Positions 40,757 to 63,618 of a stretch of 64,000 nucleotides of DNA are shown one piece after another. Within the stretch, counting starts at the first letter, position 1. Each line of letters opens with the position of its first letter. The stretch comes from Clostridia bacterium (lineage in GTDB: Bacteria > Bacillota > Clostridia > TANB77 > CAG-465). Location: the NCBI GenBank assembly GCA_030524345.1, contig JAUNGP010000003.1, positions 67,775 through 131,774 on the forward strand, written 5' to 3'. A program made the translations under genes and the position numbers. The notes beneath the pieces are model-generated. The model was not told the origin of the DNA. It ran no database searches and saw only the letters and a program-made list of their open reading frames with translations.

Positions 40757-42070
40757 ATGCCAAAAGTTTACTTAGAAAAAAATGTATTAGAAGCGGCACT
40801 AAAAAGAATTGAAATTATCCTTACAAATTTTAATCATGTCTATTTTTGTGTAAGTGCCGGAAAAGATAGTTCTGTAATGATTCAACTAGCAAATATCGTT
40901 GCAAAAAAATTAGATAAAAAATTTGATGTCTTATATATTGATTTAGAAGCACAATTCAAATGTACCATAAATCATCTCTATGAATTAAAAGAATTATCAC
41001 AAATAAGGGATTTTTATCATATAGCACTTCCTCTTGCACTAAGAAATGCAACTTCTGTACTTCAACCCAAATGGATTTGTTGGGAAGAAGAAAGTAAAGA
41101 CCTATGGGTTAGAGAAATGCCTAAAGATAGTATCAATATGTCAAATAATCCTTTTCCATGGTTTCGTAAAGGAGAAGAATTTGAAGACTTTATCGTTCAG
41201 TTTGCAGATTGGTATCAACAAAAATATAATGAAACAGTTGCTTGTGGAATTGGTATCAGAACAGATGAAAGTCTCAATAGGTTTAGAACAATTGCTTTTC
41301 AAAAACATAAAGAAGAATTTCAAAATTATCATTGGACTACAAAATTAAAATCCAAAAACAAAACTTACGATGTCTATAACTTCTACCCTATTTATGACTT
41401 TAAAGTAGAAGATATTTGGGGAACTGTTAGCAAACTTGATTTTAAGTATAATCAAATCTATGAATTAATGTATAAAAATGGTTTAAATATACACTTACAA
41501 AGAATTTGTCAACCTTATGGAGATGACCAAAAAAATGGTCTGGACCAATTTAAATCATTAGAATATGAAACCTGGGAAAAGGTATTATCTAGAGTAAATG
41601 GTGTTAATTTTGGAAACATATACTGCCGCACTACAGCTCTTGGAAATATCAAATCCTGTAAGCCAAGATTTATGAAATGGCAAGAATATGCGGTTTTTTT
41701 ACTAGAAAGTATAGGAATTTATAATCCTGACCTAATGTATCATTACTATGGAAAAATCAAAAAATTTATTAATTGGTATGAAAAGAAAGAAAATATCACT
41801 ATACAAGACATTCCAGAAGAAGCACCGCCGTTTTTAGAAAACAACAAAAAAGCCATTTCTTGGAGAAGAATTGCAAGAGCAGTAGAGAAAAATGATTTCT
41901 ATATGAAAAGGCTATGCTTTGCTCAAACCAAAACGGATAACAAAAAATTAGAACTACTTGCCCACAAATGGGACAACCTATTAACAGCAGAGACTGACAC
42001 CAATGATAAAGATCTCATTAATTTTATAAATCGAAAGGAAAATGAAAATGATATTAAAATTAACCAATAA
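40757..42070 (+). CDS. IbrA-like PAPS-reductase-family protein (DUF3440)
   Basis: A 437-residue protein with an N-terminal PP-loop ATPase/PAPS-reductase fold: YFCVSAGKDSSVMIQLAN carries the loop SAGKDSS (about 33-39). The C-terminal half matches the DUF3440 type found in E. coli IbrA. IbrA with IbrB activates eib genes in E. coli; the biochemical activity is unknown. The fold relates it to DndC-type sulfur-activating enzymes. It begins a three-gene plus-strand cassette, and its end overlaps the next gene. No canonical ribosome binding site is right before ATG 40757; AGGA is held in the loop of a hairpin upstream. Confidence 0.85.
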   Translation: MPKVYLEKNVLEAALKRIEIILTNFNHVYFCVSAGKDSSVMIQLANIVAKKLDKKFDVLYIDLEAQFKCTINHLYELKELSQIRDFYHIALPLALRNATSVLQPKWICWEEESKDLWVREMPKDSINMSNNPFPWFRKGEEFEDFIVQFADWYQQKYNETVACGIGIRTDESLNRFRTIAFQKHKEEFQNYHWTTKLKSKNKTYDVYNFYPIYDFKVEDIWGTVSKLDFKYNQIYELMYKNGLNIHLQRICQPYGDDQKNGLDQFKSLEYETWEKVLSRVNGVNFGNIYCRTTALGNIKSCKPRFMKWQEYAVFLLESIGIYNPDLMYHYYGKIKKFINWYEKKENITIQDIPEEAPPFLENNKKAISWRRIARAVEKNDFYMKRLCFAQTKTDNKKLELLAHKWDNLLTAETDTNDKDLINFINRKENENDIKINQ

Positions 42071-42416
42071 ATCGGAAAACTTTTATAACTATCTAGGGAA
42101 ATTTTTTGGCTCTAGAATTGTTGAAATTACAACACAAGATAGGATCTATGATGATAACAACAAGACTTGGTACATTTATCTAGAAAGCGATGTGGTAACA
42201 AGCTTTATCTCAATTGCAAATGATAAAATCAAAAATATATATTCTACCAATTCAGATCATCTTGAGAAATTACTAAACTATCTAAAAGAAGATACGCTTA
42301 TTCTTCCAAGTACTGTAACAAATGCCTATGTAGAAATATATACCAAATGTAATTTTAACATTTCTAGTGATAATTATAAAAATTTTGTAAAGATATGGAG
42401 TAAAGAAAATGAGTAA
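42048..42416 (+). CDS. small GNAT-fold-like protein of the IbrA/IbrB cassette
   Basis: A ~122-residue protein between the IbrA- and IbrB-like genes. The middle (WYIYLESDVVTSFISI) and the end (AYVEIYTKCNFNISSDNYKNF) look like a degenerate GNAT fold, with the motif B tyrosine-rich segment but without a clear acetyl-CoA loop. The start is ATG 42048, 8 bases from AGGA; ATG 42042 is also in frame but too close. It overlaps both neighbours, so all three are translationally coupled. Confidence 0.7.
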   Translation: MILKLTNKSENFYNYLGKFFGSRIVEITTQDRIYDDNNKTWYIYLESDVVTSFISIANDKIKNIYSTNSDHLEKLLNYLKEDTLILPSTVTNAYVEIYTKCNFNISSDNYKNFVKIWSKENE

Positions 42417-42951
42417 GAAAAAAATTGAATTTCCAGTACTAAATGTAAAAATGGTAGACATAGAAAAAGTGGAATCAAACGATTATAATCCCAATCGAGT
42501 TGCAACACCTGAAATGGAACTGCTAAAACACTCTATCGAAATGGATGGATATACGCAACCAATTGTTGCATACTATGATAAAAAAGAAGATAAATACATT
42601 ATTGTAGATGGCTTTCATAGATATAAATGTGCTAGACTATATTTTGATTTAAAGGAAATACCAGTTGTGGTCATTAATAAAGATTTAAAAAATCGAATGG
42701 CAAGTACTATCAGGCATAATCGTGCTAGGGGTACCCACCAGATTCCAAATATGTCAAGCATTGTAATAGAACTTACAAAACTTGGTTGGTCTGAACAAAA
42801 AATATCAGTTGAACTGGGAATGGAACTTGATGAAATTGTCAGACTAAAACAAATCAGTGGCTTAAAAGAAGCTTTTGCAGACCATGTGTTTAGTAAATCT
42901 TGGGAAGAATTCGAAACTAAAATTCAAAGCGATAATCAGGAAAAAATATAA
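42409..42951 (+). CDS. IbrB-like ParB/sulfiredoxin-domain protein
   Basis: A 180-residue protein with a ParB N-terminal nuclease-like domain: SNDYNPNRVATPEMELLKHSI, then TQPIVAYYD, the YIIVDGFHRYKCA motif and RASTIRHNRARGTH-like sequence (about 98-112). The C-terminus has a short helical part (WSEQKISVELGMELDEIVRLKQ, about 130-150) reminiscent of a helix-turn-helix. E. coli IbrB has the same type of domain and works with IbrA. Starts inside the end of the preceding gene. Confidence 0.87.
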   Translation: MSKKKIEFPVLNVKMVDIEKVESNDYNPNRVATPEMELLKHSIEMDGYTQPIVAYYDKKEDKYIIVDGFHRYKCARLYFDLKEIPVVVINKDLKNRMASTIRHNRARGTHQIPNMSSIVIELTKLGWSEQKISVELGMELDEIVRLKQISGLKEAFADHVFSKSWEEFETKIQSDNQEKI

Positions 42952-48899: not shown

Positions 48900-49787
48900 T
48901 TATGATTGTTTTTTTATCATATTTAAAAACTTTGATATATTGTCTGATGTTCCATCCCAATCATAACATATATCTCCGTTTTGAAATATAATCAAATCAT
49001 TTAATTCTGCAATATTTCCAAAATATACTGCAGTATTCATAATGCCTCTATGATATTGCATTCTAAATACTTTTTCCTTATTTTCACCAATTTTAGAAAA
49101 AGTACAAGTATCACAAACATTGCAAAAAGTATGAGATTCGTAAAAATAAGTTTGCGCAAGCTCGTTAATGAGAGTGCATTCTGTCATTTCATGTAGTTTG
49201 CTTCTATCTTGTCTTACATAATCACTTCTCATATTTAAAACTAAGGTATCCATTCCACCTTTTAACGTAGCAATCCTTTCCCATCTTTCTACATACTTTT
49301 TTACATTTTCAATAGAAAAAGTCTCTTCATTCTGTGATACAACATTAATTCGTACAGGCTTTTTTATGGTTGCAATCACTTCATCTTGAACAATATCATG
49401 TAATAATTCAAGATCTTCTTCATAAGTAGTTTTATGCCTTGATATACTAATACTCTTGATACAATCGTAACGATTTACAATATCAATAAATTCATCACTA
49501 TTTTTCTTAGGCAAGCTAGTATTAATGTATACAATCTTATCATCAACGATACTCAATAGCTCTCTAAGCATTTTAGGATTTGCACTTGGTTCACCACCTG
49601 TAAATACTACAATTGGCAAGATGGAATCACGTATTAGCATAAGACTTTCTTTTATTTTAGAAAAATCGCACCTTCTTTTTTTGTAGTCTTCTTTTGAAGA
49701 ACAAAATTTGCACCGATTGGTACAATCCCACGGTACATATACCGTTACAGAAAAATCACTTCGACCAATTGTAAAATCACTCACCAT
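48900..49787 (-). CDS. radical SAM enzyme, candidate peptide maturase
   Basis: A 295-residue radical SAM protein with Cys22-X3-Cys26-X2-Cys29 (CTNRCKFC), GGEP (64-67) and a second cysteine group CNVCDTC (222-228), which could ligate an auxiliary cluster. No full SPASM domain of the usual length is visible, and there is no RRE-like N-terminal domain. The adjacent downstream gene is a Cys-rich peptide, which suggests peptide modification through thioether or similar bonds. Transcribed from a consensus promoter. Confidence 0.85.
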   Translation of the reverse strand: MVSDFTIGRSDFSVTVYVPWDCTNRCKFCSSKEDYKKRRCDFSKIKESLMLIRDSILPIVVFTGGEPSANPKMLRELLSIVDDKIVYINTSLPKKNSDEFIDIVNRYDCIKSISISRHKTTYEEDLELLHDIVQDEVIATIKKPVRINVVSQNEETFSIENVKKYVERWERIATLKGGMDTLVLNMRSDYVRQDRSKLHEMTECTLINELAQTYFYESHTFCNVCDTCTFSKIGENKEKVFRMQYHRGIMNTAVYFGNIAELNDLIIFQNGDICYDWDGTSDNISKFLNMIKKQS

Positions 49788-50724: not shown

Positions 50725-52536
50725 TTAGTTTCTATTCTTTCCATTATTTTGAATCATAATAATCACTACCATACAAATAATGATAAAACTAATTAAAAAT
50801 ATTCCTACATACACTCCTACATGAATATCTGATGTATCTACTGTTTTCTCTACTGGTATCTTTTCAAATATTGCATAAAAAATAGTGTCCTCTACTATTT
50901 TATACTCACTTGGTATCACTTCTATTCTTTCTCCATCTTTTTCTACTTCCCACCTTATAAATCGATAACCTTCATCTGCTTTTGGTGTTGGTACATTCTT
51001 AGGATACTCATCTGGTTTTACAATTTCATTATCTTCTCCTACAATTGTTCCTCCTTCTTCTGCTATATATGTTACCTTTAGTTCTATTTCTTTTGAAGAG
51101 ATTGTGATACAATCTTCATATACATCTCTTATACTTAAGACATTATCTACATAACTCTCTTTTCCTAGTCCCTTTCCTAAATCTTCTCCGTTTATATCTT
51201 CTGATAGATACCCGGATATGATATTTTCATTACTTGTAATTTCTCTAATACTTAAACTATTATCTTTTTCAAAATTTACTTGATTTCTACTATATATTAA
51301 GTTTTCATGATCTATTTTATTTCCATTCTCATCTACTTCATATACATAATATTGATCATTTAGATTATAATGCTCAATTTCTATAGTTGTATCCCCTTTT
51401 CCATTCCACAATTCTATTTTGGCAATATAATCTGTCTGATTACTTAATTCATCTGTAAACAATCCTATATAGTGAATGCTATTATCATTTGCACTGTTTA
51501 CTTCCTTATGAATCTTAATAATTGCCTCTCTTTTTCTAATATATTCTAATGTTGGAGAACTAATCGTAATATTCCCTCTTACATTACTACTATCAATCAT
51601 ACACGTTGCAGTAGAATTAGTATCTAACATTTCTTCTCTTGGTGTTTCATCATTCATTTTCTTATATAAGATATTAAATTCGAATGTCTCTATCATATCA
51701 GATGTTGCAAACTCATTTTTATCTATATACCAATAAATCGTGTTTGTTGGTTTGATATAAATATATTTCTTCCCTTGATAAATTTCATATGATACTCTTG
51801 CCATTTCATCATCATCTAAGCTTTCTACAATCGTCCATTCATCATTTGTCATATACTCAGAAGATAGTTCAAAGTCATCACTTAGCTTATCTACATATAA
51901 AATGACTTTTTGAAAGCTTTGTGCCATACCAACATTTTTATACATAGTCTCACTTAAAACTGGTAAATATTGTAATTTGATTTGTGCAATTCCTTGCTCC
52001 TTATGAATCCATTTAGCAGATTTTACAACTGCTTGTTCATCATTTTTCACAAACTTTTTTGTAACATAGATTGTTATCTCATTTTTACCTGCTATATCAA
52101 AATTTTCAATTCTCACATCAGGCCAATTTCCATGATACTTGACTCCATCTATTTCAAATTCAGTATAACAATCATATCCCGGTATTTGACCATTTAAAAA
52201 TTGTCCAATGTAAAGCTCCTCTAAGGTATCTGTTAGAAAAACTTTTTCTTCTTTTTCTAGTGAATACACATAATAGTTTCCGTCTCTATTTGTATATGTA
52301 TATCTATTCATTTCTTCTACATCAGATGCCTCACAGGTAAAATATAGTCTTTCACAAAATTCACTTACCTCATCATCTGAGATGCCTTCAGTTTTCAATT
52401 TAAACACAACAGTTGGTGCGTCTTCTAATATAGCATTACTTTCTTTCACACTATTTATTGTAATAATAACCATTATAGCAATTAACATAATCCATAGAAA
52501 TACTGTTAAAACTGATATATTTCGCTTTTGTTTCAT
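50725..52536 (-). CDS. two-anchor surface protein A
   Basis: About 603 residues: a cytoplasmic start (MKQKRN), an N-terminal membrane helix (LTVFLWIMLIAIMVIITI), a very large extracytoplasmic region, and a C-terminal anchor (VGVYVGIFLISFIIICMVVIIM, followed by KNRN). Near the C-terminus is an InlB B-repeat-like unit (VTYIAEEGGTIVGED, YRFIRWEVEKDG, TIFYAIFEK). There is no LPXTG. The start is ATG 52536 behind CAGGAGG; upstream TTG codons are inside the leader. It is paralogous to 61307-63235 and shares its leader. Confidence 0.85.
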   Translation of the reverse strand: MKQKRNISVLTVFLWIMLIAIMVIITINSVKESNAILEDAPTVVFKLKTEGISDDEVSEFCERLYFTCEASDVEEMNRYTYTNRDGNYYVYSLEKEEKVFLTDTLEELYIGQFLNGQIPGYDCYTEFEIDGVKYHGNWPDVRIENFDIAGKNEITIYVTKKFVKNDEQAVVKSAKWIHKEQGIAQIKLQYLPVLSETMYKNVGMAQSFQKVILYVDKLSDDFELSSEYMTNDEWTIVESLDDDEMARVSYEIYQGKKYIYIKPTNTIYWYIDKNEFATSDMIETFEFNILYKKMNDETPREEMLDTNSTATCMIDSSNVRGNITISSPTLEYIRKREAIIKIHKEVNSANDNSIHYIGLFTDELSNQTDYIAKIELWNGKGDTTIEIEHYNLNDQYYVYEVDENGNKIDHENLIYSRNQVNFEKDNSLSIREITSNENIISGYLSEDINGEDLGKGLGKESYVDNVLSIRDVYEDCITISSKEIELKVTYIAEEGGTIVGEDNEIVKPDEYPKNVPTPKADEGYRFIRWEVEKDGERIEVIPSEYKIVEDTIFYAIFEKIPVEKTVDTSDIHVGVYVGIFLISFIIICMVVIIMIQNNGKNRN

Positions 52537-52583
52537 GTTTTCCTCCTGTCCATCATGATCATGGTGACTTGCACACAAAAAGA

Positions 52584-52609
52584 GCTGGTACTAGTTTCCT
52601 AGTATCAGC
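52584..52609 (-). terminator. terminator-like hairpin in leader A
   Basis: GCTG-A-TACTAG / CTAGTA-C-CAGC with a GAAA loop and a TCTTTTT tail, 48 bases before the surface protein start. Identical in the second leader. Confidence 0.75.
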
Positions 52610-52657
52610 CTATATCATAACGGACAAAATTATCCTTATTATCTACTTTTTCACTGT

Positions 52658-52729
52658 TTATAGAACTACGTTGTGTGTGTGTGTGTGTGTGTGTAGTTCT
52701 TTCACTATTTTGTGTACTTTAGTTACCAT
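52658..52729 (-). CDS. leader peptide A (23 aa, His-Thr repeats)
   Basis: ATG 52729 lies 8 bases from AGAGGA. The frame begins MVTKVHKIVKEL, continues HTHTHTHN and ends VVL with TAA. The His-Thr run comes from a (CA)11 tract. The second leader has the same frame, length and tract with two amino-acid changes (V5M, K10N) and one silent change (CAC/CAT). Confidence 0.5.
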   Translation of the reverse strand: MVTKVHKIVKELHTHTHTHNVVL

Positions 52730-52838
52730 AATCATTTTCCTCTTTTCTGTAACCATATTAGGTTACATTCATATGTTAACATTTTTCGACAACTTTTTCA
52801 AGTATTATTATGTAAAATATTTCATCATTAATACTTTT

Positions 52839-54016: not shown

Positions 54017-54033
54017 TCCAATCATAATTAAAA

Positions 54034-54128
54034 TTATCACCCAAAGTAAACTTTGTCGGTTTTAGCACCTTATATACACAGGTTGCTGTGGAGTCATAAA
54101 GCCGAATCTCTCGTCCACTCTTGATAAC
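54034..54128 (-). ncRNA. SAM-I (S-box) riboswitch
   Basis: On the minus strand the S-box landmarks appear in order: GTTATCAAGAGTGG, GAGAGATTCGGC, TATGACTCC, CAGCAACC, GGTGCTAAAACC and a closing GGTGATAA that pairs with the start. The aptamer is followed by a terminator, so high SAM should stop transcription before metK. It has a consensus promoter just upstream. Confidence 0.93.
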
Positions 54129-54144
54129 ATATATTATATATCCT

Positions 54145-54176: not shown

Positions 54177-54201
54177 GCCCTATAGAAAAAACTATAGGGC
54201 C
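54177..54201 (-). terminator. hairpin after the nucleoside-type operon
   Basis: Perfect 9-bp stem GCCCTATAG/CTATAGGGC, 8 bases past the PurC-like stop. The T-run is weak on the minus strand, so termination may be partial. Confidence 0.55.
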
Positions 54202-54208
54202 TATTTCA

Positions 54209-55015
54209 TTAATCTAATACATATACAAAGGATTCATAGTTTGGATACAATCGATCCAAAAATTCCTTGTAAACTTTTAAAATTTCCTCATCAGATTTCA
54301 TTTGTCTGAAAGCATCCTTGGTAAGCGTTCTACCAGTCTTAACATCGTTTGCTCTAATGCAGTCCTGACTAATTTCATCAATGAGTATCATTTTGCCATC
54401 GCATTTACCAAATTCCATCTTCATATCAATTAGCCTGATATCAGCTTTTTGAAATAAAAAGTTAATGCGACTGCCAATCGAAGAAAGCAACAGATCAGCT
54501 TCATCAAACTCTTCTTTACTTAAAAGATCAAGTCCAATAATATAACTTTCATTCATAGTAGGATCGTCAACACCACCAGTCTTGGATACGTCAATTTTGA
54601 TATCATACTTATGAAGCGGTCTTTTAAATTTCTGACCTTCTACTACATAACCGGGAAACAGTCTTACAATACTCCCAGCCGCATAATATCTACAGATCCA
54701 CTCAATGGGGACTGGCTTTGTAAGCTTTACCAAAATACCATAGATACCATTTACCTTTATTATTTTAGAATACTTAAGGTGTGTAGGTATATTACTATCC
54801 TCAAGAGTGTTTAAGATTCCAATCGTGGCATACATTCTGTAAAGATCTGTTCCAGGAATCATTTCTTCTCTGTTGTAAGTTACACTTCTAAGATGAGGTT
54901 TGTAAACCATAAATCCGGTCTCTTCATCTATCTTGTAAATTGTTTTTGACTTACCATCTGCAATCACCTCACATTTAGTAAGATCAAGTGTTTTAAGTGT
55001 ATCCAGGGCCATCAT
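54209..55015 (-). CDS. SAICAR-synthetase-like (PurC/PenC-like) ligase
   Basis: A 268-residue PurC-family ATP-dependent ligase: ADGKSKTIYKI (ATP loop), RYYAAGSIVRLFPGYVVEG (about 109-127), MEFGKCDGKMILIDEISQDCIR (about 200-221; the DEIS motif). Overlaps the fusion gene stop by four bases (ATGA) and has GAGGAGG at 7 bases. Not in a purine operon. With the HisG-like domain and the SDR it matches the PenC/CofC role in pentostatin/coformycin pathways. Housekeeping PurC cannot be excluded from the protein alone. Confidence 0.85.
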   Translation of the reverse strand: MMALDTLKTLDLTKCEVIADGKSKTIYKIDEETGFMVYKPHLRSVTYNREEMIPGTDLYRMYATIGILNTLEDSNIPTHLKYSKIIKVNGIYGILVKLTKPVPIEWICRYYAAGSIVRLFPGYVVEGQKFKRPLHKYDIKIDVSKTGGVDDPTMNESYIIGLDLLSKEEFDEADLLLSSIGSRINFLFQKADIRLIDMKMEFGKCDGKMILIDEISQDCIRANDVKTGRTLTKDAFRQMKSDEEILKVYKEFLDRLYPNYESFVYVLD

Positions 55016-57225
55016 TTCAATTCCTCCTCTAAAATTTCCTTCACATCTTCAATGACTTCTGAAGTTGTCTTTGATACATCAAGTTCAATGACATTTACCA
55101 GCTTATTCTCTCTTAAGAAATTAACGGCTTCCTCATACAAATTGTAGTATTCCTGAAGAGATTCTAAAGATTCAAATTCATCTTTTTTACTTCTCTGCTG
55201 TGATCTTTCATATGCAATACTTGGATCAACTTTGCAATAGAGTAACACATCTGGTAGAGGCATCCAACTCTGAAGTACCTTTTTAATCATCTCTTCTGAT
55301 TCCCGTGCTTTAAAAAGATCTACTACACCTGTTAAAACGGATCTGTCATAGACCATATTCACAACTTCATTTGCACGCCAATGTTTTTTAGCAATGCACA
55401 TAGACCAATCTACAAATTTACCATCCTTCCATAAAGCAAAGCTCTCTCTTCCCACTTTTCCAGAAAATGGTTCTACAAGAACAGTCGGCAAGAACTTAAA
55501 AAGTCCATTTTGAACAACAACTTTAGCAAGCGTAGATTTACCAGATCCATCAATTCCATCAAAAGCGATACATTTAAATTTCTCTATTCTGTCTACCAAA
55601 CCTAAATTCACAAAAAGAGGAATTTTATCAACTCTAGAAGTAGCAAGTACTGCTCCAAATTTCATCACAGGCATGTACTCTACAAGTCCATTTTCTTTAG
55701 CTGTTTCACCTGTTTCAACTACATCAAAGATACTACTTGCCCAACCAAGTGGTATACTTGCTTCCACACTTCCCTCCATTAGTAAGATATTCTCATCAGG
55801 AACATTTAGATGCTCTTTTAATAAATTGGGATAACTTGTTGCAATCTTTCTCTCTTTAAAAAAGCTAAGGGGCATTTCTTTTAGTCTCTCTGGCACAAGT
55901 AAACTCATTCTACAGTCTTTCTGCTCAAAAAATTTTAAAGCAACAAAAGACTTATTACTCTTCTCGAGCCACTTGTCTGCACCATAAATAACAAAGTCAA
56001 ATTTGTCATAATTCTTAGTAATATCTGCCCACTTCAGAAGGCTGATTCTTAAGATATATCGATCAGTTTCAATATCATAAACAAGTATTCTATCACTGAT
56101 TTTAGGAATCGATACTCCAATAGATTCTAAATATTTATGAAGTACTTTTTGTAATCTTCCCTTTACCGCACCAATGGTAACAAGAATTTTTTCTTCTGTT
56201 CTGGGCATATTTACCTCATTAAAAATACATTTCTCTAATTCTGCTAAAATATTATCATTTTCCGTTGTATGAAAAGTTCTAATTCCCTCCTCTGTAAGCA
56301 AAATTTGACTTGTTGACTCAGAAGTATTAGAATAAGCCTGACCTGCCATAGAATTTCCCACCAAAGAAAGCATGGATCGGATTAAATACTCTGGCATTGT
56401 AGGCTTTAATCTTTTTATAACTTCTATAGACTTAAAGAAAGCATCTCTTACTGCCTCATCGCCATTTTTAAACGACTTACCAATTCCAATAACGGCTAAA
56501 GCATTTTGACCGGTAAGCGGTTCTTTCCCCATAATAAAAATGGGGTCAGTTTGAAATGGTTTCCAAGGCTTTACAATCGATACTCTAATCGTTACATTAG
56601 CAGAAGCCTCAAGCGCCACACCACTTAACTCTCCATAAGACTGAACAGCATGAACATCGCCTAGATAAAGCATAGCTCCATCCAGTTGCACCGGCAAATA
56701 AATATCTACCCCTTCTTTGATAAAAGGATTATCAAAATTTCCGCCTGTAACACCAATATGACCTGTTTTAATAAATCCTTCTTCTGGTGTAGTTGCAATC
56801 ATTCCAATACATGGCTCTAATTTTAGCTTAATACCAGAATGATAGTATTCAATCTGTCCACTTTTGATTTCTCCCATCGTTGCCATTCTGTCAGAAAACG
56901 AGAAATCATCCTTTTTAATAGGAGATATTCCTGCTGTCTTAGAAAGCATCTGTGCCATTTCCAGTATTTCAATTTTTTCGATATGAATTTTTATCATATC
57001 ACCCTTTTTTGCTCCTTTAACTTCAATAGGTCCTGTCAAAGGATGATGATGATTTGCATCACCACTCATACTTAAAATATCCTGTAACTCAGATACGTTT
57101 GAAAACCGTTTCCCATAGGCATTAATTGTTTCAATTACAACACTTTCATCCGTGCAGATACTTTCAACCGAGGTATGTTCCTTTGAAATCCTAGTTGCAT
57201 AATTACATGAAATAAATTTGCCCAT
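55012..57225 (-). CDS. triple fusion: formamidase-like, HisG-like, dTMP-kinase-like
   Basis: A 737-residue protein with three enzyme domains. Residues ~1-325 are acetamidase/formamidase (GDANHHHPLTGPIEVKGAKKGD, GGNFDN, LGDVHAVQSYGEL). Residues ~345-545 are an ATP-phosphoribosyltransferase (HisG) core: KGRLQKVLHKYLE at the start, IATSYPNLLKEHL (461-473), LLMEGSVEASIPLGWASSIFD (the PRPP region, 481-501) and ETGETAKENGL. Residues ~550-737 are thymidylate-kinase-like: P-loop DGIDGSGKST (556-565), YDRSV, and a LID with several Arg/Lys. The HisG part lacks the C-terminal histidine-sensing domain. It lies 11 bases after the SDR gene. Confidence 0.88.
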   Translation of the reverse strand: MGKFISCNYATRISKEHTSVESICTDESVVIETINAYGKRFSNVSELQDILSMSGDANHHHPLTGPIEVKGAKKGDMIKIHIEKIEILEMAQMLSKTAGISPIKKDDFSFSDRMATMGEIKSGQIEYYHSGIKLKLEPCIGMIATTPEEGFIKTGHIGVTGGNFDNPFIKEGVDIYLPVQLDGAMLYLGDVHAVQSYGELSGVALEASANVTIRVSIVKPWKPFQTDPIFIMGKEPLTGQNALAVIGIGKSFKNGDEAVRDAFFKSIEVIKRLKPTMPEYLIRSMLSLVGNSMAGQAYSNTSESTSQILLTEEGIRTFHTTENDNILAELEKCIFNEVNMPRTEEKILVTIGAVKGRLQKVLHKYLESIGVSIPKISDRILVYDIETDRYILRISLLKWADITKNYDKFDFVIYGADKWLEKSNKSFVALKFFEQKDCRMSLLVPERLKEMPLSFFKERKIATSYPNLLKEHLNVPDENILLMEGSVEASIPLGWASSIFDVVETGETAKENGLVEYMPVMKFGAVLATSRVDKIPLFVNLGLVDRIEKFKCIAFDGIDGSGKSTLAKVVVQNGLFKFLPTVLVEPFSGKVGRESFALWKDGKFVDWSMCIAKKHWRANEVVNMVYDRSVLTGVVDLFKARESEEMIKKVLQSWMPLPDVLLYCKVDPSIAYERSQQRSKKDEFESLESLQEYYNLYEEAVNFLRENKLVNVIELDVSKTTSEVIEDVKEILEEELK

Positions 57226-57236
57226 TTTTCTCCTCC

Positions 57237-57920
57237 TTATTTATACTGTAAAATTTCAATTCCATCAAATGGAAGTTCCAATGGTGACGTAGGTCTTAGA
57301 TTGATATACGATGGTAATAAATTAGGTGGAAGTTTTGCTAAAGAAACAATCGCCTTTCCTATTTCTTCAGGCTTGATTTTCCATTCCTCATCTATCCCAT
57401 GATCCCGATTCTTAATAGCTCCAAGAGACAATACAGTACTTCTTACTCCAGTATGTCTTACTTCTTCCATAAAGCATTCTGCCATAACATGTAAAGCTGC
57501 CTTACTAGAACAATACGCAGCACCTTTTGCAAAAGGATAATCCCCTGCATGGGAGCCAATAAATACAACATGTCCCTTATTTTCTTTCAGCTTATCTACC
57601 AAGCAAGATAAAATATAGAAAGGTCCTTTTAAATTCACATCAATTGAATCAGAAAAATCTTTTAATGTAAGATCTCCGATACCACCAAATCTTCTAATTC
57701 CTGCATTTAGCACAAGCAAATCTACCTTTTTTACCTGGGAACAAGCATACTGTATCTCTTCCATATTGGAGATATCACACCGTATATCATGGTAATTTTT
57801 TAAATCTTCTTTTAGCGGAGTTTTATTAAACCCGTATACAGTATACCTGTTGGCTAAAAGTTCTTTTAAAATACCATAACCTGCTCCCCTGTTACATCCT
57901 GTAATTACTGCTACTTTCAT
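57237..57920 (-). CDS. short-chain dehydrogenase/reductase (PenB/CofB-like position)
   Basis: A 227-residue classical SDR: cofactor motif TGCNRGAGYG (8-17), NAG (about 72-74), Ser in GSHAG and catalytic YCSSK (about 136-140). The C-terminus has SYINLRPTSPLELP, unusual for housekeeping SDRs. First gene of the three-gene operon, with AAAGGAG before ATG. By synteny it would reduce the keto group of a diazepine nucleoside precursor; the substrate is inferred, not shown. Confidence 0.88.
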   Translation of the reverse strand: MKVAVITGCNRGAGYGILKELLANRYTVYGFNKTPLKEDLKNYHDIRCDISNMEEIQYACSQVKKVDLLVLNAGIRRFGGIGDLTLKDFSDSIDVNLKGPFYILSCLVDKLKENKGHVVFIGSHAGDYPFAKGAAYCSSKAALHVMAECFMEEVRHTGVRSTVLSLGAIKNRDHGIDEEWKIKPEEIGKAIVSLAKLPPNLLPSYINLRPTSPLELPFDGIEILQYK

Positions 57921-58008: not shown

Positions 58009-58037
58009 ATTATATCAGTCAGATTATGTAATGTCAA
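58009..58037 (-). promoter_or_regulatory. consensus promoter of the nucleoside-type operon
   Basis: TTGACA and TATAAT (with TG extension) spaced exactly 17 bases on the minus strand. Confidence 0.85.
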
Positions 58038-61306: not shown

Positions 61307-63235
61307 TCATGATTTATTTTTTATCAATAGCAATATGGTTACTATACAGATAACAATAATACTGATTACCAAGATTGCACCATACATCCATATATTAATA
61401 TCACCTGTATTTACCATTATCGCTTTATATTGGTATACGATTACTATCTCTTCTTTTGTCATAATTCCGTCTTTATTATCTGGCTCTTCTCCATATGCAT
61501 AATAACCATCTATGGTTCTTCTTTTAGTTGTATACTCATCTCCTACATATCCATCTATGATCTTGCTGTCTGCTATTTCATTTCCTGCTTCATCTACATA
61601 TTTTATAATCACTTTGGTTGGAATCTTTTTAAACAGTGCAATAAATGTGGTATCTTCTTCTACCACATATTCATTTGGACTTACCTCAATTTGTTTTCCA
61701 TTTTTTTCTATAATCCATTTATCAAATTCATAATTTTTATCTGGAATTAAGTTTGGTATAATGCTTGATTTTTCTCCATGCTTTACTACTTCTTCACTTT
61801 GCCCCTCAAGACTTCCACCTTTTTGAGTTATATATCTTACAAAATGAACTTCTTCTTGATAGTCTGATGTTATCGTTACGGTATCCTCATATTTATTGCT
61901 GAATAAGATAAGATTATTATTATATAATGAGTCAGTTATTTGTGTATTCGATAATGATGAGATAATACCCTTATCAGATAATATTTCTAATTTTTCTATA
62001 CCAGCAATATGATCCAGTACAAGATTTTTACTATATGTAAGTCTCTCACTTTCTATTTTATTTCCAAACTCATCTACCTCATATATATAGTAGTTCTCAT
62101 TGACATCATATAAATCAAGATCTATTGTTACATGTCCTATTCCATTTTCTGTATGGATATCATATATTTTATCTACTTTCGTATCTGACTCATTATGAAA
62201 CACACCTAAATGATAAGTATTATTACCAATTTCTCCATTTACCAATTTATTAACAATAACTCTTGTATTCGTTTGTTCTTCATATTTTAAATATTTCGTT
62301 CCTAAATCATACTCTTCTACTACATGTTGTGTATCGCTAGATCCCATTCCGTCTACTTTTGCATACACGGCTCTTGTATCAAATTCAAATAATGAACTTT
62401 CTTTATTCAAATCATTACATATTACATGAAACTTAGTTTCTTTGATTACTTCTTCATCAGATATTAAAGAGTACACGATATTAGTATTTTTTAAGTATAT
62501 ATATTTTATCTTTTTATTCCAGCCAAAATATCCATCATTCATATGTGCAAAGAAATGACTATATATATAATTTGGTATTCCATTAGCAGAATCTAGATTT
62601 TCTCTCTCTCTATCAGATAACTCATTTTCGTCTATGATTTTCCATTCCTCTGAATCCTGATATTCATCTGCTAATACAAAGTTATCCGGTAGTCTTTCTA
62701 CAAAGATAACCTCACCATGTTCTCTTGGCGGAAATCCACTAATTTTGTTAATAATAGTAGCTTTCCCTTCTTCTTGATCCGTCCAGCTGATTTTACTTTG
62801 TACTTTTTTAGTATCATTCATTACTGTAAAATGATAATCAGATATTTCGCTCTCCTTTGTAATATTTTTACAATAATAACAGGTTTCATTATATTCGATA
62901 ACATCTAATTCCTCTTGGCCATCAAGCACATAATAATCTCCTGTATCTATTAATATACAGTAATCACTACTTGTATCTACTTCAATCGAAAATATGGCAA
63001 AAAAGTCAGATGCTGAATTCAATGATGTAGACGATAAATTACCATTTTGAAGAATATAACAATTAGTTGATAATGTAACATAGCCATCTAATTGAATTGT
63101 TATGCTTTTTTTGTTTTCTTCTAAAGAATTTCTTTTAGTTATTCCACCTATTGTTACCACAGCTATTGCTACTATGAATGCTATTAACAAAAATACTGTT
63201 AATAGTGAAATTCTACTTTTTTCTTTTTTTTCCAT
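61307..63235 (-). CDS. two-anchor surface protein B
   Basis: A 642-residue paralogue of surface protein A: N-terminal anchor (LLTVFLLIAFIVAIAVVTIG), large outer region, an InlB B-repeat-like unit (VRYITQKGGSLEGQSEEV, FDKWIIEKNGK) and a MucBP-like segment (VIIKYVDEAGNEIADSKI, GYVGDEYTTK), then a C-terminal anchor and KNKS. No LPXTG. The start follows AGAGGAGG. Transcribed from the second copy of the leader. Compared with A it has the extra MucBP-like part. Confidence 0.85.
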   Translation of the reverse strand: MEKKEKSRISLLTVFLLIAFIVAIAVVTIGGITKRNSLEENKKSITIQLDGYVTLSTNCYILQNGNLSSTSLNSASDFFAIFSIEVDTSSDYCILIDTGDYYVLDGQEELDVIEYNETCYYCKNITKESEISDYHFTVMNDTKKVQSKISWTDQEEGKATIINKISGFPPREHGEVIFVERLPDNFVLADEYQDSEEWKIIDENELSDRERENLDSANGIPNYIYSHFFAHMNDGYFGWNKKIKYIYLKNTNIVYSLISDEEVIKETKFHVICNDLNKESSLFEFDTRAVYAKVDGMGSSDTQHVVEEYDLGTKYLKYEEQTNTRVIVNKLVNGEIGNNTYHLGVFHNESDTKVDKIYDIHTENGIGHVTIDLDLYDVNENYYIYEVDEFGNKIESERLTYSKNLVLDHIAGIEKLEILSDKGIISSLSNTQITDSLYNNNLILFSNKYEDTVTITSDYQEEVHFVRYITQKGGSLEGQSEEVVKHGEKSSIIPNLIPDKNYEFDKWIIEKNGKQIEVSPNEYVVEEDTTFIALFKKIPTKVIIKYVDEAGNEIADSKIIDGYVGDEYTTKRRTIDGYYAYGEEPDNKDGIMTKEEIVIVYQYKAIMVNTGDINIWMYGAILVISIIVICIVTILLLIKNKS

Positions 63236-63281
63236 AATGCCTCCTCTTATAATATTGATTATGTTTTTAAACGCAAAAAGA

Positions 63282-63307
63282 GCTGGTACTAGTTTCCTAG
63301 TATCAGC
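63282..63307 (-). terminator. terminator-like hairpin in leader B
   Basis: Identical to the hairpin of leader A: GCTG-A-TACTAG, GAAA loop, CTAGTA-C-CAGC, tail TCTTTTT, 47 bases before the surface protein B start. Confidence 0.75.
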
Positions 63308-63355
63308 TTATATTGAAACGAGCAGAACTCGCCCTATTACCTTTCTTTACAATAT

Positions 63356-63427
63356 TTATAGAACTACGTTGTGTGTGTGTGTGTGTGTGTGTAGTTCATT
63401 CACTATTTTATGCATTTTAGTTACCAT
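63356..63427 (-). CDS. leader peptide B (23 aa, His-Thr repeats)
   Basis: ATG 63427 lies 7 bases from AGAGGA. The frame begins MVTKMHKIVNEL, continues HTHTHTHN and ends VVL with TAA. Same length and (CA)11 tract as copy A. Confidence 0.5.
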   Translation of the reverse strand: MVTKMHKIVNELHTHTHTHNVVL

Positions 63428-63618
63428 AATCATTTCCTCTTCTCTGTAATCTATTTTTGATTACATCTATATGCTAACATTTTTTGACAATTATTTCAAG
63501 TATTATGATAAAAATATATTAGACTTTTTATGCCGGCCAGTCTAAATTCAAAATGAAAAATACATCACTCCTTTGCCATCTCTTCTACAACCAGATTTGA
63601 TTTTTTCTTGTCAAAAAA

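Follow-up and report, generated by a model that had tools for sequence, protein, structure and literature searches.

A three-gene Clostridial operon with the enzyme kinds of the PenABC/CofABC set as a probable route to a 1,3-diazepine or related nucleotide

Does a Clostridium encode a route to a coformycin-type nucleotide? The question is raised by three open reading frames (ORFs) in the DNA stretch analysed here (the window; 64,000 nt of contig JAUNGP010000003.1), which encode a short-chain dehydrogenase/reductase (SDR), a 737-amino-acid protein with a HisG core and a protein resembling the SAICAR synthetase PurC. From the letters alone, the initial annotation had read them as an operon for a coformycin-type product in a Firmicute. 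The operon was borne out: the ORFs lie where it had placed them, Pfam and NCBIfam agree with the identities it gave, and among the neighbouring ORFs examined there is, as it had noted, no other his or pur gene. Its product claim fared less evenly. The annotation had named the enzyme set correctly, neither the HisG-like nor the PurC-like protein is a housekeeping copy and sister clusters contribute a HisA::HisI fusion together with a HisE-like protein, but HisI and HisA are absent from the window's genome and from five others with the same, shorter operon type. Comparing by the descriptions of the Pen and Cof proteins, we regard the operon as a divergent variant of the PenABC/CofABC set that probably makes a 1,3-diazepine or related nucleotide.

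In the pentostatin pathway, PenA is HisG-like, PenC is SAICAR-synthetase-like and PenB is an SDR that acts last (PMC12648386). The early steps toward both coformycin and pentostatin resemble histidine synthesis (PMC11592144), and the adechlorin cluster recruited homologues of HisG and HisA, of which the HisG homologues fail to complement a hisG mutant (PMC13055916). The literature descriptions of PenABC-type pathways that we found come from Actinomycetota; fungal pentostatin is known separately. For coformycin, Ren et al. reportedly showed in 2020 that the histidine intermediate phosphoribulosylformimino-aminoimidazole-carboxamide ribotide (PRFAR) is the branch point, that the PurC homologue CofB forms from it 8-ketocoformycin 5'-phosphate with ammonia and D-erythronate 4-phosphate, and that the dehydrogenase CofA then reduces the keto compound.

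Structure of the operon

The elements of the operon, in the order of transcription, are as follows.

58009-58037, minus strand: promoter-like site, TTGACA-N17-TATAAT with a TG ahead of the second hexamer (12/12 positions, a consensus match only)
57237-57920, minus strand: SDR family oxidoreductase of 227 amino acids (PF00106, adh_short, 113 bits), kept in 14 clusters; proposed PenB/CofA-like role
56206-57225, minus strand: FmdA_AmdA (acetamidase/formamidase) domain, residues 1-340 of the 737-amino-acid protein (PF03069, 93.6 bits)
55591-56196, minus strand: HisG-like phosphoribosyltransferase domain, residues 344-545 (PF01634, 77.9 bits over residues 407-531; TIGR00070, 85.6 bits); proposed PenA-like role
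55012-55578, minus strand: thymidylate-kinase-fold domain of nucleoside monophosphate (NMP) kinase type, residues 550-737 (PF02223, Thymidylate_kin, 50 bits), with a GIDGSGKST P-loop and a DRS motif
54209-55015, minus strand: SAICAR-synthetase (PurC)-like protein of 268 amino acids (PF01259, SAICAR_synt, 117 bits); proposed PenC/CofB-like role
54177-54200, minus strand: 9-bp hairpin directly 3' of the purC-like stop codon, a candidate terminator (T-run scored on the plus strand only)

The SDR start codon lies 89 bp 3' of the promoter-like site. The ORF of the 737-amino-acid protein (55012-57225) and the PurC-like ORF have 4 nt in common, the start codon of the latter overlapping the stop codon of the former. 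With the promoter match, these overlapping codons, the hairpin at the 3' end and a downstream metK that has a promoter match of its own and a S-adenosylmethionine (SAM) riboswitch, the three genes are predicted to be one transcription unit.

The fusion protein and the PurC-like protein

The initial annotation had recognized the HisG core of the 737-amino-acid protein and overlooked the formamidase-like and NMP-kinase-like domains fused to it. By Pfam the protein consists of three domains, FmdA_AmdA at the N-terminus, HisG and the thymidylate-kinase (TMPK) fold at the C-terminus, and in the literature searched we found no description of an FmdA::HisG::TMPK enzyme. The HisG domain exceeds the TIGR00070 hisG cut-off (85.6 vs 75.75 bits) and its ETGxT loop for phosphoribosyl pyrophosphate (PRPP) is intact. 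The closest solved structures to the FmdA domain are 3tkk and 2ii1, and its motifs GGN-x-D and GD-x-H-x7-GE are present in 12/12 aligned sequences from both operon types described below. For the C-terminal domain, an AlphaFold2 (AF2) model (mean confidence, pLDDT, 80.5) yielded thymidylate kinases for all 50 Foldseek PDB matches listed; the modelled NMP-kinase fold suggests that some nucleotide is handled further.

The PurC-like protein stays below the purC equivalog cut-off (86.9 vs 189.9 bits). Its family retains G10, K11, K13, R94, S100, K123, D129, D175, K177, E179, D191, E192, D196, R199, K211, D212 and R215 (E. coli PurC numbering), residues that we assign to the sites for nucleotide and ribotide. 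The region of A34, G37, K46, G47 and N50, conserved in PurC, is replaced by invariant residues of the family's own (KPHLRS, then T, RE, I and T). This loop may represent the side of the second substrate.

Genome searches and trees

The window's genome (1.71 Mb, 99.85% complete) has an ordinary purC on a separate contig (C34). A second hisG was not found, and the operon's HisG domain is the only HisG of the genome. Neither HisI (no PF01502 match) nor HisE (no Pfam match above the cut-off) was detected there, and the best match to the HisA/HisF family PF00977 reached 18.5 bits, below the cut-off; we rejected this match as a hidden HisA, as it is partial and lies in a 331-amino-acid frame. Trees were built with references from several phyla, 7 for PurC and 8 for HisG; in them the operon's proteins branched separately from the ordinary enzymes, in clades with 100/100 support, subject to the program's caveat on long branches. 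Because of the separate purC, the missing HisE, HisI and HisA and the separate clades, the HisG-like and PurC-like proteins are not housekeeping copies.

Two further observations concern purine metabolism. By Pfam search, adenylosuccinate synthetase (PF00709) was not found in the window's genome, despite its purC, or in the related genome G050, so AMP would need to come from salvage. The window's genome also has no recognizable adenosine deaminase (PF00962). The lack of both enzymes is compatible with the making of a purine deaminase inhibitor, for which it is weak evidence.

Relatives of the operon

Operon genes were found in 11 of 385 sampled genomes of the order, the window's counted, and across the phylum in 1 of 398, the window's own. 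When about 85,000 species genomes were scanned with family-specific peptide patterns, by which distant PenC homologues would be missed, the hits were 13 close relatives, all of them from uncultured Clostridia or Clostridium, 10 of which were among the order's 11. With the window's host, 14 species with the operon are thus known, divided equally between two types.

The short type (the window's genome, G000, and G027, G312, G220, G097, G253 and L058) encodes the SDR, the fused FmdA::HisG::TMPK and the PurC-like protein; in G220 the fusion gene is spread over two contig ends. Three of the seven (G097, G253, L058) add a PurA-like protein. The long type (G050, G075, G122, G194, G197, L051 and L055) encodes the SDR, FmdA as a separate gene, HisG::TMPK, the PurC-like protein, a HisE-like protein and a HisA::HisI fusion. 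An NrtR-family regulator belongs to the long-type clusters as well and was not seen in G122, where the contig breaks off behind the HisE-like gene and HisA::HisI lies on another contig; in the other six everything is together. Between the types, the four core domains and the SDR share about 45-65% identity and the same motifs.

The genes of both types are under purifying selection, with dN/dS of 0.08-0.09 (four genes, G097/G253), 0.09-0.19 (four genes, G050/G075) and 0.08-0.19 (three genes, G000/G027, with dS near saturation). Within the window's genus the operon occurs in only 2 of 28 genomes, and one of these, G027, is placed in the tree among members of a different family, away from the window, which points to horizontal transfer. 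No relatives were found among viral contigs. In plasmid and phage collections, the hisG, purC, FmdA and kinase genes found were all of ordinary kinds, and neither the hisG genes on Nocardia plasmids nor the purC of a Tsukamurella plasmid had pen-like surroundings. An Anaerolineaceae candidate (L062) was discarded as a partial match of only 21.6 bits. Because the record titles of some relatives name animal metagenomes (wild mice; 'Lapin', French for rabbit), the carriers look like gut bacteria.

Several genes adjoin the related clusters. A second, divergent PurA-like protein lies next to five of them (L021:59-1351, L022:11745-13037, L027:2816-4114, L029:11097-12401 and L058:9723-11114). PurA usually has a TTGRPRR loop, in place of which these proteins read DAEGMRRR or AEGMLRR, so that their amino-acid substrate may be other than aspartate. 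Just upstream of three long-type clusters (L055:4758-5651, L051:5151-6056, L028:6799-7779) we found a protein of about 300 amino acids whose C-terminal half resembles a P-loop kinase and whose N-terminal half matches no family. The short-type clusters of G312 and G220 each adjoin a gene for a UMPH-1 type 5'-nucleotidase on the opposite strand (L020:11667-12464, L025:7655-8446); such an enzyme could in principle release a nucleoside.

Histidine-type enzymes of the long type

The HisA::HisI fusion matches PF00977 with 145 and PF01502 with 113 bits, passes the phosphoribosyl-AMP cyclohydrolase equivalog (139 vs 126) and conserves the HisI cysteines and HisA aspartates; its identity is clear. HisI and HisA are present in 5/5 long-type genomes searched. 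The HisE-like protein, of about 150 amino acids and fused to the PurC-like protein in G050 and G075, has no Pfam match to HisE (no PRA-PH); a HisE profile matched it with an E-value of 2.7e-4 at a program probability of only 19%, with three unrelated profiles at >0.5. Its AF2 model (pLDDT 92.5) has its best matches in the HisE structures 1y6x and 1yvw, with Foldseek probabilities of 0.98 and 0.97, E-values of 0.35 and 0.8 and Z-scores of 8.3 and 8.2, where a Z below 13 is not decisive for a helical bundle, a fold that reaches middling Z easily. The protein is probably a HisE.

A HisF was not detected: the long-type genomes searched contain no second full-length PF00977 protein, G194 having three more weak partial matches. 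PRFAR made in these genomes would for this reason not be destined for histidine. Enzyme by enzyme, HisG, the HisE-like protein, HisI, HisA, the PurC-like protein and the SDR would correspond to the published coformycin route, and we consider it rather likely that the long type makes a coformycin-type nucleotide.

Proposed pathway

Gene content, domain identities, conserved motifs, the distance from housekeeping proteins and purifying selection are what the analysis shows; from these we infer every reaction of the following route, and its product. The HisG domain would link PRPP to N1 of an adenine nucleotide. Opening of the purine ring and isomerization of the ribosyl group would lead to a PRFAR-type ketose, in the long type by the cluster's HisE-like protein, HisI and HisA and in the short type by something else. 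The PurC-like enzyme, with the nucleotide and ribotide residues of PurC kept and the loop replaced, would close the seven-membered ring to an 8-keto nucleotide, whose keto group the SDR would reduce. The thymidylate-kinase-fold domain may phosphorylate a substrate or the product nucleotide. The formamidase-like domain may hydrolyse an amide en route, possibly an imidazole carboxamide ahead of ring closure; more speculatively, it might turn a carboxamide into a carboxylate that the PurC-like enzyme could activate with ATP. That FmdA stands in for HisI in the short type we think unlikely, because the long types encode FmdA with the same motifs alongside HisI.

Weighing the readings

How far this route extends to the window's operon is a closer call. 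It has the three-enzyme set of PenABC, which plausibly works alike; whether it is a Clostridial version of PenABC/CofABC for a coformycin-type 1,3-diazepine purine nucleotide we hold to be evenly balanced. Several points weigh against it. HisI and HisA above the cut-off were found in none of the six short-type genomes searched (the window's and five others), which means that the published route cannot operate there unchanged. For this reason we give the window's operon less credence than the long type and class it as a divergent variant and not as a coformycin cluster. Either another enzyme supplies the HisI and HisA steps in the short type, or the product differs. In addition, the functions given to the FmdA and kinase domains are guesses, the possible orthology to PenA/B/C and CofA/B/C is drawn from published descriptions of those proteins, with the product deduced in turn, and no phosphatase or exporter was recognized in the operon.

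If the product does differ, the short type could make another modified nucleotide: HisG would use a base other than adenine, or its N1 adduct would be kept, and the PurC-like protein, SDR, FmdA and kinase would modify it further with no ring opening of the histidine kind. The long type would then be a relative of this pathway in which HisE, HisI and HisA were gained or retained. The distribution of HisI and HisA (0/6 short-type vs 5/5 long-type genomes) fits this explanation, as do the continuing purifying selection on the short-type genes and the PurA-like protein in 3/7 short types. The core domains and the SDR are, however, common to both types at an identity and with motifs that suggest one chemistry, and HisG-like, PurC-like and SDR proteins together are the known diazepine set. 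We therefore treat a different nucleotide as possible but doubtful.

Starting again from the divergent PenABC/CofABC variant, a more far-reaching version can be offered tentatively: gut Clostridia free of the histidine pathway would use a self-contained enzyme set to build a purine nucleotide, of diazepine type or modified in another way, the short type (trifunctional FmdA::HisG::TMPK, PurC-like cyclase and SDR) needing no HisE, HisI or HisA, and the product would stay a kinase-phosphorylated nucleotide and not be an excreted nucleoside.

A nucleotide-based defence or signalling system, whose enzymes make or destroy a modified nucleotide upon phage infection, would suit the patchy distribution with its signs of transfer, the NMP-kinase fold and a HAM1 gene that adjoins two long-type clusters. 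It is nevertheless improbable, as PADLOC models matched only the P-loop domains of the cluster proteins tested (best VakA, 39.7 bits), no effector gene was recognized and the NrtR-type repressor of the long types fits metabolic control. That ordinary housekeeping HisG, SDR and PurC are adjacent by chance can hardly be maintained: the HisG domain does pass the hisG equivalog cut-off and is the genome's sole HisG, but the genome searches found none of the other histidine genes tested and a second purC, the operon's PurC-like protein is under the purC cut-off, the clades are fully separate and the gene order is the same in 14 species with differing surroundings.

Genes surrounding the operon

The SAM riboswitch (72.6 bits) lies at 54031-54130 on the minus strand, upstream of metK. 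The listed, GTG-started metK ORF of 409 amino acids begins within it, which places the true start of metK at the ATG downstream ([17 protein letters not shown]). Also downstream of the operon are genes for a short radical SAM protein (48900-49787, minus strand), which has no curated NCBIfam family over the cut-off and no operon link that we could find, and for a Zip protein. We rejected metK and the radical SAM and Zip genes as pathway parts, because metK has its own promoter and riboswitch and the surroundings of the relatives contain no homologue of any of the three.

A 165-nt direct repeat (86%; 52573-52737 and 63271-63435) flanks the operon, its copies lying a short way upstream of two paralogous genes of surface-protein-like type (50725-52578 and 61307-63235), with a third paralogue further upstream (L031:5535-8036). 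As the sole repeat, in this position, it was rejected as a mobile-element boundary. At 40757-42951 on the plus strand, a gene for a phosphoadenosine-phosphosulfate (PAPS)-reductase/DUF3440 protein is followed by a 124-amino-acid ORF and a ParB-domain protein, possibly a mobile-element module.

Significance and comparison with known systems

Since the operon has the enzyme kinds of Pen and Cof and the remaining steps are encoded in its relatives, adenosine or AMP deaminase inhibitors may be products of some gut bacteria; if true, this would bear on adenosine signalling and purine competition in the gut. The long-type clusters, with early histidine steps and ring closure in few genes, would be a handy package for testing PurC-like cyclization. 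The short type raises the question of whether the ring is built without HisI and HisA or the product is another.

Compared with the reported cof cluster of Streptomyces kaniharaensis, the long type has at least a candidate for each step of the proposed route (HisG, HisE-like, HisI, HisA, PurC-like cyclase and SDR); unlike in Streptomyces, where the early steps overlap histidine synthesis, it encodes them in the cluster. In the pen cluster of Streptomyces antibioticus, HisG-like, SDR and SAICAR-synthetase-like proteins are likewise encoded together and apart from the housekeeping purC (PMC12648386). The window differs in the fusion of HisG to FmdA and a thymidylate-kinase-fold domain, in its Clostridium host in which HisE, HisI and HisA were not found and in having no arabinosyl-adenine genes in the operon, and the long-type relatives differ in encoding their own HisE-like protein, HisI and HisA. 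The ade cluster of Nonomuraea sp. ATCC 39365 similarly recruited homologues of HisG (AdeC, AdeL) and HisA (AdeK), whereas no recruitment of HisI is described for it (PMC13055916), the Clostridia have HisA fused to HisI and no halogenase was recognized in their clusters. Although no C-glycoside synthase resembling beta-RFAP synthase was recognized near the Clostridial operons, the formycin and pyrazofurin clusters share with them the use of second copies of PurC-type and, for formycin, PurA-type enzymes in the formation of nucleoside antibiotics (PMC8724604).

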